Assembly: GCA_015152455.1 (NCBI GenBank)
Contig: SUTY01000009.1
Coordinates: 1 to 34,802 of the forward strand
Origin: Cyanobacteria bacterium SIG32
GTDB taxonomy: Bacteria; Cyanobacteriota; Vampirovibrionia; Gastranaerophilales; Gastranaerophilaceae
Length of the DNA: 34,802 nucleotides
Direction of reading: 5' to 3'
Shown: one piece after another, positions 1,043 to 34,802 of the stretch
How the letters are laid out: every line of letters begins with the position of its first letter
How positions within the stretch are numbered: the stretch's first letter is position 1
Notes under the pieces: generated by a model
Database searches by the model: none
What the model saw: only the letters and a program-made list of their open reading frames with translations
Told to the model about the DNA's origin: nothing
Made by a program: the position numbers and the translations under genes

Positions 1043-1987
1043 TTAAACTCCTGCCATTTCAGCATTTAATGCTTCAACTGTTGCTTCAAGCGAAGCTACG
1101 TCGTATACGTTATATACATTTGCATCAGAAGCAATCTTTTTATTTAGACCAGCAAGAACTTTTCCTGGACCGATTTCAATAAATGTATCAACACCTTCTG
1201 AAACCATTTTTTCAATAGTTTGAGTCCAATACACTGATGAATAGATTTGTTTTGGCATTTTAGCTCTAAAATCTTCTTTTAAAGTTGTAGCTTCAGCATC
1301 AACGTTTGTAATAACAGGAATTGATGCATCATTTAATTCAATGTCTGCAATAAACTCACCGAAATTACTCCCTGCTGATTCCATAAATTTAGAATGGAAC
1401 GCTCCAGATACTGCTAAAGGAACAACACGTCTTACGCCATTAGCTAGAAGATAATCACTTGTAGCTTTTACAGCATCTTCTGCGCCTGTAATAACAACTT
1501 GGGCTGGCGAATTATAGTTTGCTACGTCAACATAACCAACTTTATTTCCTTCTTCCAGGCCAGCTTTTAAAACTTCTTCGCTAGCATTAAGAACAGCTGC
1601 CATTGCACCACCTTTGGTTTCACTCATTAAGTCAGCACGTTTTTGAATAGCTCTAAGAGTGTTTTCTAAAGACATAACGCCCGCAGAAAACATTGCACAA
1701 TATTCACCTAAAGAATGTCCAGCAACATAATCCGGTGTAATATTACATTTTTCACGAAGCACTTCCATAGCTGCAATTGACATTGTTACAATACAAGGTT
1801 GAGTGTTAACAGTTTGTTTTAAATTTTCTTCAGGCCCTTCAAAACAAAGCGATGAAATGTTTTTACCTAAAGTTGAATTAGCTATTTCAAACACTTCTTT
1901 TGCAGTATTTGAACTTTCATATAAATCTTTTCCCATACCAACAGTTTGTGAGCCTTGTCCTGGAAATAAGAATGCTATTTTTTTCAT
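1043..1987 (-). CDS. fabD: malonyl-CoA:ACP transacylase
   Basis: FLFPGQGSQ, GHSLGEY catalytic Ser motif, AFHSKFM, EIGPGKVL. Confidence 0.96.
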   Translation of the reverse strand: MKKIAFLFPGQGSQTVGMGKDLYESSNTAKEVFEIANSTLGKNISSLCFEGPEENLKQTVNTQPCIVTMSIAAMEVLREKCNITPDYVAGHSLGEYCAMFSAGVMSLENTLRAIQKRADLMSETKGGAMAAVLNASEEVLKAGLEEGNKVGYVDVANYNSPAQVVITGAEDAVKATSDYLLANGVRRVVPLAVSGAFHSKFMESAGSNFGEFIADIELNDASIPVITNVDAEATTLKEDFRAKMPKQIYSSVYWTQTIEKMVSEGVDTFIEIGPGKVLAGLNKKIASDANVYNVYDVASLEATVEALNAEMAGV

Positions 1988-3444: not shown

Positions 3445-4500
3445 CTAAATCATTTCTGAAATCTTAGTATTAACGCCTGTTTCTACAGCATTTTTTGCAA
3501 CTCTTACAGCATTTTTAATAGCATAAGCTCTGCTTCTACCGTGTGAAATTACTGTAATTCCCTTTACGCCAAGAAGTAAGCAACCGCCGAATTCTTCATA
3601 ATTGATTCTGCCGTATATTCTTCTTAAGAAAGGTTTTGCTAAAAGTCCAACAATCATACCCAAGAAATCAGATTTGAATGTGCTTTTAATCATCTTGAAT
3701 AATAATGTTGCAGTGCCTTCTGTAACTTTTAGGACAACATTTCCTACAAAACCGTCACAGACAACAACATCACAAACGTTTAAGAATAGCTCTCTACCCT
3801 CAACGTTACCCATGAAATTGAATTTTTCTTTTTCTTCTTCTAATAGATTGTAAGCTGCTTGAGCAAGTTCGTTACCTTTACCAGCTTCTTCGCCGATGTT
3901 AAGAACACCGACTCTTGGGTTTTCAACGCCAAGAACATTTTTAGAAAAAGTCATGCCCATAACAGCAAACTGTTTTAGCATTTGTGGAGTACAATTGCTG
4001 TTTGCACCACCATCAATTACAACTATAGGTTTTTTCATTGTAGGAAGTGTAACTGCAATAGCTGGTCTATCAACACCAGGAATTCTTCCTAAACCAAACA
4101 AGCTTGATGCCATTGCTGCGCCTGTCGAACCAGCTGCCACCAAAGCGTCTGAACTTCCTGTCGCAACAGAGTTTACCGCTAAAACGATTGAAGAATTTTT
4201 CTTTTTACGAATTGCTTGTCCTGGAGCTTCGCCCATTTCAATAACTTCTGAAGCATGGGTAATTTTAATATCCAAAGATTTCACATCAACATGAACTCTT
4301 CTTTTTCTACCAGCTTTTCCACAATCAGATAGAAAACCTTCTTTCTGAATTTTTTCTAAACAACTTTCTATTCTATCTTCCTTACCAACAAGTTCAATAG
4401 CGACTCCATATTCTGCAGCAGCCCATACAGCACCTGCAACTATTTCAAATGGAGCGTTATCTCCTCCCATTGCGTCAATGGCTATTCTAGTCATTCTCAC
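3445..4500 (-). CDS. plsX: phosphate acyltransferase PlsX
   Basis: IAIDAMGGDNAP N-terminus, VDGGAN, NIGEE, CDGFVGNVVLK motifs. Confidence 0.96.
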   Translation of the reverse strand: MRMTRIAIDAMGGDNAPFEIVAGAVWAAAEYGVAIELVGKEDRIESCLEKIQKEGFLSDCGKAGRKRRVHVDVKSLDIKITHASEVIEMGEAPGQAIRKKKNSSIVLAVNSVATGSSDALVAAGSTGAAMASSLFGLGRIPGVDRPAIAVTLPTMKKPIVVIDGGANSNCTPQMLKQFAVMGMTFSKNVLGVENPRVGVLNIGEEAGKGNELAQAAYNLLEEEKEKFNFMGNVEGRELFLNVCDVVVCDGFVGNVVLKVTEGTATLLFKMIKSTFKSDFLGMIVGLLAKPFLRRIYGRINYEEFGGCLLLGVKGITVISHGRSRAYAIKNAVRVAKNAVETGVNTKISEMI

Positions 4501-33776: not shown

Positions 33777-34181
33777 ATGGTTAAATCAATTGCATTAGCG
33801 ATTCAAAGAGGATTAAAAAGCAAATGCTTACAATCTGTTATTAGACGAGGAGATAGAACGATATTATTATTTAGGCACCCTAAAACTGGGGCTACTGTAG
33901 TGAAAAGCTGTTCTTCTACTGGAATTGTAACTGCTGGCTATAAAGCTGGAGAAAGAACTAATAAAATAGTAAAAGATTTTAATGTTTTCGGCAATCTTGA
34001 ACAACGGGCGCATTTAATGCCGAGCGTGTATAATCCTGATAAACTGGTTCAGCAACTAAGTTTCGCTAACAATACTTATGTTGCAAAAAATGGTAAATTA
34101 ATAGAATATTTAAATGGTAAAAAAATTTCGGAAGTTCCTAGAAGTATGGAAAAAGTTGTTGATTCTATTGTGTGGGCATAG
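33777..34181 (+). CDS. uncharacterised 134-aa protein behind leader copy 2
   Basis: Complete ORF, SD TTGGAGG; no recognised domain. Confidence 0.7.
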   Translation: MVKSIALAIQRGLKSKCLQSVIRRGDRTILLFRHPKTGATVVKSCSSTGIVTAGYKAGERTNKIVKDFNVFGNLEQRAHLMPSVYNPDKLVQQLSFANNTYVAKNGKLIEYLNGKKISEVPRSMEKVVDSIVWA

Positions 34182-34223: not shown

Positions 34224-34242
34224 TAAAGATTTCTGATAAACT

Positions 34243-34273
34243 AAAAGAGATTAGGTATAACCTAATCTCTTTT
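34243..34273 (-). terminator. terminator hairpin adjoining tRNA-Gly 3'-end copy A
   Basis: AAAAGAGATTAGGT-ATA-ACCTAATCTCTTTT, 14-bp perfect stem. Confidence 0.8.
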
Positions 34274-34277
34274 TATT

Positions 34278-34293
34278 AGCGGAAGACGAGACT
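34278..34293 (-). repeat. tRNA-Gly 3'-end fragment, copy A
   Basis: AGCGGAAGACGAGACT = reverse complement of AGTCTCGTCTTCCGCT; part of a 27-bp direct repeat (34269-34295) with copy C (34681-34707). Confidence 0.65.
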
Positions 34294-34450
34294 CGTCTTG
34301 GATTTGCTCCACGCTCGAATAGTCTCGTTTACGAACCTACGGTTCTATCAAACTCGATATTCTCGCTATCCGGACTAGCACTTTGTGCGTCGTCCGTCCG
34401 CAAATCCGCCGAACTCGCAAAGGTCTCTTTCTCGCCAGTATCTACCTAAC

Positions 34451-34489
34451 AAAATAAGCCGATAGAACTAAAGTCCAACGGCTTATTTT
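34451..34489 (-). terminator. terminator hairpin adjoining copy B
   Basis: AAAATAAGCCG ... CGGCTTATTTT, 11-bp perfect stem. Confidence 0.75.
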
Positions 34490-34507
34490 GGAGCGGAAGA
34501 CGAGACT
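34489..34507 (-). repeat. tRNA-Gly 3'-end fragment, copy B (includes encoded CCA)
   Basis: TGGAGCGGAAGACGAGACT: minus strand AGTCTCGTCTTCCGCTCCA. Confidence 0.65.
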
Positions 34508-34651
34508 GTCTTGACCTGTTCGCATTAAACGTGTCTACGTGTTTTGCTACAGAGTTTTCAACTCTTTGCAAAAGCACTACGCACTCTGCTCACAGGTCGC
34601 TCGAACTCGGTAAAGTGCTTGCGCACTGGAGTTCTCGTCTCTATCATTCCA

Positions 34652-34689
34652 AATAAAAAGGACTCACTTTTCAGTGAATCCTTTTTATT
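34652..34689 (-). terminator. terminator hairpin adjoining copy C
   Basis: AATAAAAAGGACTCACT-TTTC-AGTGAATCCTTTTTATT, one mismatch in 17. Confidence 0.75.
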
Positions 34690-34733
34690 AGCGGAAGACG
34701 AGACTCGAACTCGCGACAGTCTGCTTGGAAGGC
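34690..34733 (-). pseudogene. tRNA-Gly(UCC)-like 3' half, copy C
   Basis: Minus strand GCCTTCCAAGCAGACTGTCGCGAGTTCGAGTCTCGTCTTCCGCT: anticodon loop CTTCCAA, intact T-arm GCGAG-TTCGAGT-CTCGT and acceptor 3' strand CTTCCGC; no matching GCGGAAG 5' acceptor strand or D-arm upstream. Confidence 0.65.
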
Positions 34734-34802
34734 TCTTTCATAGCCTTTTTTGTGATTTTTACTGATGTCGCTTGATATGGTTATAGCCCTTATTTATCAA
34801 TG

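Follow-up and report, generated by a model that had tools for sequence, protein, structure and literature searches.

Tandem tRNA-end cassettes with folded cores in Candidatus Gastranaerophilales: candidate non-autonomous mobile units at tRNA genes

Transfer RNA genes serve as integration anchors for several kinds of mobile DNA. For example, the integrative elements that enter tRNA 3' ends by means of tyrosine integrases, among them the tycheposons and satellites of cyanobacteria, cross over within the tRNA gene, whose 3' end is restored while the old end is displaced, and casposons also use tRNA 3' ends. The anticodon loop is a usual crossover region of integrases. Tandem growth at a single anchor is known from the cassette arrays of integrons (attI/attC, IntI), short folded sequences in multiple copies are represented by MITEs and by the palindromic repeats of the REP/REPIN type, and the elements that exploit Xer (IMEX) integrate site-specifically without being autonomous. 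A bacterial SINE, in turn, would take its 5' part from one tRNA and involve reverse transcription. A literature search, incomplete in its coverage, found nothing on repeats of the kind described below.

The array considered here lies in the window, that is, the whole stretch of 34,802 nucleotides analysed, which is the entire contig C37 of the 98-contig draft genome (G000) of Cyanobacteria bacterium SIG32, and its right edge stands about 70 bp short of the contig end. The original prediction had recognized three tandem tRNA-Gly 3' ends, each with a strong terminator hairpin, and this description holds. The 16-mer AGCGGAAGACGAGACT is exact at 34278-34293, 34492-34507 and 34690-34705 (plus strand), has no further site in the window at up to two mismatches, and was found in none of 100 dinucleotide shuffles, and each copy is followed, on the minus strand, by an inverted repeat with a strong fold (Table 1). 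The other details of the prediction were also recovered: an exact 27-bp stretch is common to copies A and C (34269-34295 and 34681-34707), copy B carries the CCA, and copy C reaches the anticodon loop, being 100% identical to positions 30-73 of an intact tRNA-Gly(UCC) at G000:C36:10822-10894, with sequence unrelated to the tRNA on its 5' side. The tRNA ends and hairpins are nonetheless the smaller part of the array, as most of its 430 bp belongs to two segments that had gone unnamed, core A (covariance model R1, 34295-34419, 127 bits) and core B (model R2, 34508-34606, 100 bits). The module of unit 1 consists of a half resembling the reverse complement of the tRNA-Gly T-arm and a half in direct orientation, which flank a small hairpin.

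Table 1. Parts of the tRNA-Gly array in the window, in the order in which they are read on the minus strand
Feature	Coordinates	Strand	Remarks
Copy C: last 44 nt of tRNA-Gly(UCC), from anticodon loop through discriminator, without 5' half	34690..34733	-	
Unit 1, terminator-like perfect hairpin abutting the tRNA end	34651..34689	-	Inverted repeat I1; fold z -7.3
Unit 1, 5' module: GGAATGATAGAGACGAGAACTC...GAGTTCGA	34601..34650	-	Recurs in relatives, arms matching the local tRNA
Core B: structured mobile hairpin with CAAGAC end	34508..34600	-	Fold z -4.3
Copy B: tRNA-Gly 3' end from the T-loop (34492-34507) with encoded CCA (34489-34491)	34489..34507	-	
Unit 2, terminator-like hairpin	34450..34490	-	Inverted repeat; fold z -7.5
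Unit 2, 5' module: GTTAGGTAGATACTGGCGAGAAAG...GCGAGTTCG	34410..34449	-	Alignment A1
Core A: structured mobile hairpin GCGGATTT...CAAATCCAAGAC	34295..34409	-	Fold z -4.9; sharp ends in unrelated hosts
Copy A: distal tRNA-Gly 3' end	34278..34294	-	
Distal terminator-like hairpin	34243..34273	-	Inverted repeat I3; fold z -6.2

ARAGORN detects no tRNA in the window. The intact tRNA-Gly(UCC) stands on another contig (C36), amid core genes and without an array, and none of the 34 intact tRNA genes read in G000 is followed by a copy of its own end, so the window array, the single one of this genome and separated from its tRNA, is an orphan. Given the intact gene, the idea that the fragments might be unique and have no intact tRNA-Gly behind them falls away, and the recurrence of the pattern in dozens of independent assemblies makes an assembly artefact unlikely. 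This tRNA-Gly(UCC) and that at G012:C2:3490-3562 differ in type from the usual one of the genus, and G012 holds both types. Beside the array, an ORF of 134 aa (33777-34181, plus strand) has no Pfam or NCBIfam match, and its ortholog, sought for an empty allele of the window locus, was missing from 15 further genomes of the genus.

When the array was searched against 40 relatives, the stretches separating the tRNA ends proved to be conserved independently, at many sites, and their alignment yielded two families, core A (consensus parts GCGGATTT...AGTCCGGATAGCGA...GAGCGTGGAGSAAATCCAAGAC) and core B (GCGACCTGCGAGC...GCGAGCAGGTCAAGAC). Compensatory changes occur in 18 of the 31 predicted pairs of core A and in 15 of 20 in core B, which points to strong covariation in both; the structures were predicted from the same alignments used for this count, which favours them, and the changes are numerous despite that. 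The window copies of both cores fold far better than shuffles, and neither core matches an RNA family in Rfam, at gathering or at relaxed thresholds.

The two cores are widespread in the window's family of Candidatus Gastranaerophilales. Core A was found in 97 of 148 genomes of the order, with 1 to at least 23 copies each, and in 128 of 392 genomes of the phylum; among the matches listed in the phylum search all are within the window's family, and two matches in the order search fall in another family. Core B occurs in 47 of 60 relatives, at up to 44 copies per genome. The named records with the A end are MAGs of Candidatus Gastranaerophilales or Melainabacteria, together with uncultured or rumen MAGs, and core A also lies on one contig labelled Muribaculaceae (L165), which may be misbinned. 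In phage and plasmid collections no core match was obtained, the tRNA-end part alone giving matches, and one IMG/VR contig has one core copy. At L271, an IMG/VR contig, a truncated gene start (ATGGCTACGATTTTAACAAATGCACA) is followed by core A and then by the intact start (about 3770-3960).

In high-copy genomes, core A measures 110-120 nt and has identical ends across unrelated hosts, such as the centres of inverted repeats (for example, between CTGAACTT and GTTTCAG) and short tandem repeats, which it occupies between TA and A. At L230-L249 the hosts are 8-bp tandem repeats (GGCACTAA, GTGATTAA, CGTCTTAA, GGGAATAA) of several genomes, with the same position of the core, and at L188 (about 1306-1450, minus strand) a B-like core lies within the loop of the first hairpin of an A core. 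Given the sharp ends in unrelated hosts and the B-like core inside an A core, the core, which is short, non-coding, multi-copy and exact at its ends, is an independently mobile hairpin, with the tRNA cassettes as one setting among others.

In the relatives, whose genomes are drafts, one per species, intact tRNA genes are immediately followed by the units, and it is the end of the tRNA at that site that is repeated. In G002, the genome surveyed without selection, 11 of 41 tRNA genes show their own end again within 1200 bp on the downstream side and one shows it upstream, the upstream match and one of those downstream being neighbouring tRNA-Pro genes. Among the 154 tRNA loci read, which were picked for matching elements, so that their frequencies are not population estimates, such a copy lies downstream in 61 and upstream in 3, and 52 of the 61 downstream copies are also preceded by an element end. 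The duplicated 3' end of the local tRNA thus bounds the element in 52 arrays, and ten isotypes are represented. The units measure about 150-200 nt, carry no gene, and stand in tandem with their conserved folded cores and CAAGAC at the end; in two arrays (L080, L097) one unit is present twice with another in between. At L081 (G016:C3:103500-106200, about 788-1700), and also at L133, the gene of a Clp_N-domain protein is placed between two tRNA-Asp ends, as if a unit had captured it.

The recurrence of one architecture at many tRNA genes bears on the two interpretations first offered for the locus. It agrees with the serial acquisition of a cassette made up of a tRNA end and a terminator, whereas a SINE-like family derived from tRNA had to be abandoned, as only the 3' end is involved, this end matches the local tRNA with no single source tRNA, and the units share a structured core that is itself not derived from tRNA.

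The tRNA is also reflected in the module, the stretch from terminator to core: its left arm is similar to the local T-arm in reverse complement, and its right arm is the T-arm's 5' half. Modules with such arms are present in nearly all of the arrays read, and the match of the arms to the local tRNA exceeds all 5000 permutations (6.58 versus 5.02, sd 0.17), a statistic limited by the dependence among related loci. For unit B of the window, folding predicts that the left arm pairs with the copy of the tRNA end and closes a three-way junction, and when tRNA ends were exchanged between isotypes as a control, the predicted pairing fell modestly, from 6.7 to 5.3 pairs.

The comparison of loci between species provides a record of insertion, displacement and exchange. 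In front of a conserved gene whose sequence reads as pgi-like, the tRNA-Gly(UCC) locus carries no unit in G006, G008 and G012, and a B unit is present there in G011 and G013. At tRNA-Gly(GCC), the terminator and module are 87-94% alike in G002, G013, G010 and G009, but the 110 nt that follow belong to core A in two of these species and to core B in the other two; the A and B stretches are 38-40% alike, which is the level of unrelated loci, and the exchange falls exactly at GTTCG, in the T-loop. The terminator AATTAAAAGACCGTAGGACTTTAGTTCTAACGGTC adjoins the tRNA in G006, with nearly the same arrangement in G007, and heads the second unit in G002, where a newer unit stands between it and the tRNA. 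By reading, the middle terminator of the window has its inner part (CCGTTGGACTTTAGTTCTATCGG) in common with AATTAAAAGACCGTAGGACTTTAGTTCTAACGGTC and resembles in that part the terminator of the tRNA-Gly(GCC) loci of these three species. The displacement of AATTAAAAGACCGTAGGACTTTAGTTCTAACGGTC to second place, together with the exchange of A and B, indicates that each unit arrives with a tRNA end and a terminator of its own and displaces the older ones from the tRNA. The empty and filled alleles and the displaced terminator lend further weight to serial acquisition.

Given these observations, we consider it probable, with some reserve, that the locus consists of two non-autonomous mobile units in tandem, which were inserted serially behind a tRNA-Gly(UCC) gene. 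Each unit would comprise a tRNA 3' end from the T-loop onwards, a terminator, a short module that mirrors the T-arm, and a core (A or B) with the CAAGAC end. Site-specific strand exchange in the T-loop at insertion would allow the incoming unit to provide a new 3' end and terminator, with which the tRNA would remain functional, and would shift the old tRNA end and old terminator downstream, the array being the product of repeated insertion. The cores can also replace one another or insert separately, at the apex of inverted repeats, and the 5' half of the window's tRNA copy was presumably lost later, which would have left the orphan. The most likely agent would be an enzyme acting in trans at T-loop-like sites, perhaps a tyrosine recombinase, for which the core, as one folded DNA strand, would be the other partner. 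The T-loop is not the only target of core A, and its presence in palindromes and short tandem repeats that are not tRNA counts against serial insertion. The modest effect of exchanged tRNA ends on the predicted pairing, the single, tRNA-less array of G000 and the few arrays with the same terminator on both sides speak against it as well, and so does the result that no recombinase was tied to the units.

The main rival, to which we give a low probability, is transposition with a long target duplication, in which module and core would insert behind the tRNA, the 60-90 bp from the T-loop to just past the terminator would be copied on both sides, and the distal terminator would then be free to decay. 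Identical terminators are indeed found on both sides in a few arrays, given that the duplication at L072 is exact over about 62 bp, which take in the terminator and the 10 nt after it, and L300 and L313 have nearly the same, so that long target duplication or tandem duplication fits these arrays better; at L079, moreover, the nine nt past the terminator are equal on both sides despite the decay of the distal terminator. In most of the 52 arrays, however, the two terminators are unrelated and the distal one is often itself an intact hairpin. The proximal terminators of the same tRNA are alike across species in 14% of pairs (score of at least 25), as against 3% of proximal-distal pairs, and a terminator that adjoins the tRNA in two species and stands second in a third is also difficult to reconcile with target duplication.

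We rank lower still, as improbable, a local tandem duplication with unequal crossing-over between tRNA ends, after which hairpin MITEs (A and B) would have been inserted into the duplicated T-loops. Two arrays (L267, L171) have the appearance of plain tandem duplications, and core A clearly inserts alone at the apex of unrelated inverted repeats, but a core end precedes the distal end copy in those 52 of 61 cases, the T-arm-matching module accompanies nearly all arrays, and duplication cannot account for different terminators within one array. It is very improbable that the locus is an ordinary integrase scar, in which an island entered the anticodon loop of tRNA-Gly and left copy C as an attachment remnant amid unrelated debris: the start of copy C at the anticodon loop and its foreign 5' flank suit this reading, which explains at most the lost 5' half, but copies A and B have their start in the T-loop, next to conserved elements that recur at many tRNAs, and no integrase gene lies beside the array. 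Equally slight is the chance that the units are functional RNAs, such as regulators or tRNA decoys, kept by selection and not mobile, as the strong covariation and the insulation between terminators might suggest, since related genomes hold from 0 to more than 40 copies, at varying positions, the distal units are subject to decay, and core A is missing from many near-complete genomes of the window's family.

None of 60 genomes has an integron integrase (IntI, TIGR02249) above the curated cut-off, and the weaker matches are mostly Xer-like in size; Xer-like proteins are widespread. A short tyrosine recombinase is common in carrier genomes and lies near elements at L054, L115, L153 and L166; its presence does not track copy number, and it is absent from the carriers G013 (18 B and 3 A copies) and G000. 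Among 20 recombinase loci taken with 1.5 kb flanks, B matches were found at two and A matches at none. At L219, where the contig ends in core A and a tRNA-Gly end, the sequence reads as a large serine recombinase gene close to the tRNA end and, at the opposite end, as a short tyrosine recombinase gene. An autonomous partner of core A, sought through unpaired A ends, gave truncated or nested copies only, and the loci read contain no autonomous transposon with matching ends, nearly all of the 172 paired ends being 90-130 nt apart. These searches found neither a partner transposase for the cores nor a recombinase tied to the units.

The units appear to form a hitherto undescribed family of very small mobile elements, which occupy tRNA genes while leaving them intact and belong to an uncultured lineage of gut bacteria related to cyanobacteria. 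With ten isotypes, many species, and both empty and filled alleles, they offer natural replicate experiments on tRNA genes as integration anchors, and in annotation pipelines they will turn up as false tRNA fragments and as intergenic repeats without explanation.

Compared with the known systems, the units differ from a bacterial SINE in containing only 3' ends, those of the local tRNA. They recall the integrative elements of tRNA 3' ends in the crossover proposed within the tRNA and in the fate of the tRNA end, and differ in their small size, in encoding no integrase, in the use of many isotypes by the same core, and in their tandem arrays. With MITEs and REP/REPIN-type repeats they share the short, non-coding, multi-copy and folded form, the sharp ends and the location at palindromes, while the covarying multi-stem core, the association with tRNA-end cassettes and the lack of a partner transposase among our findings set them apart. 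The enzyme proposed here to act in trans would liken them to IMEX, whose target is dif and not the T-loop of a tRNA. As in integrons, tandem arrays grow at one anchor, the same unit occurs at separate places, and each unit is delimited by a structured hairpin, the outer arm of which is predicted to pair with the sequence of the next unit; unlike integrons, the anchor is a tRNA gene, the units are almost all non-coding, each with a tRNA end and a terminator, and no integron integrase above the cut-off accompanies them in the 60 genomes. The study of these units may thus reveal a hairpin-based recombination system outside integrons and, as a bolder and doubtful extension, one distinct from them, which would be anchored at the tRNA T-loop, would use folded single-stranded hairpins (A, B and their relatives) as exchange sites, would have arms copied from or adapted to the target tRNA, and would build cassette arrays that occasionally capture genes, as the tRNA-Asp array of L081 may illustrate.
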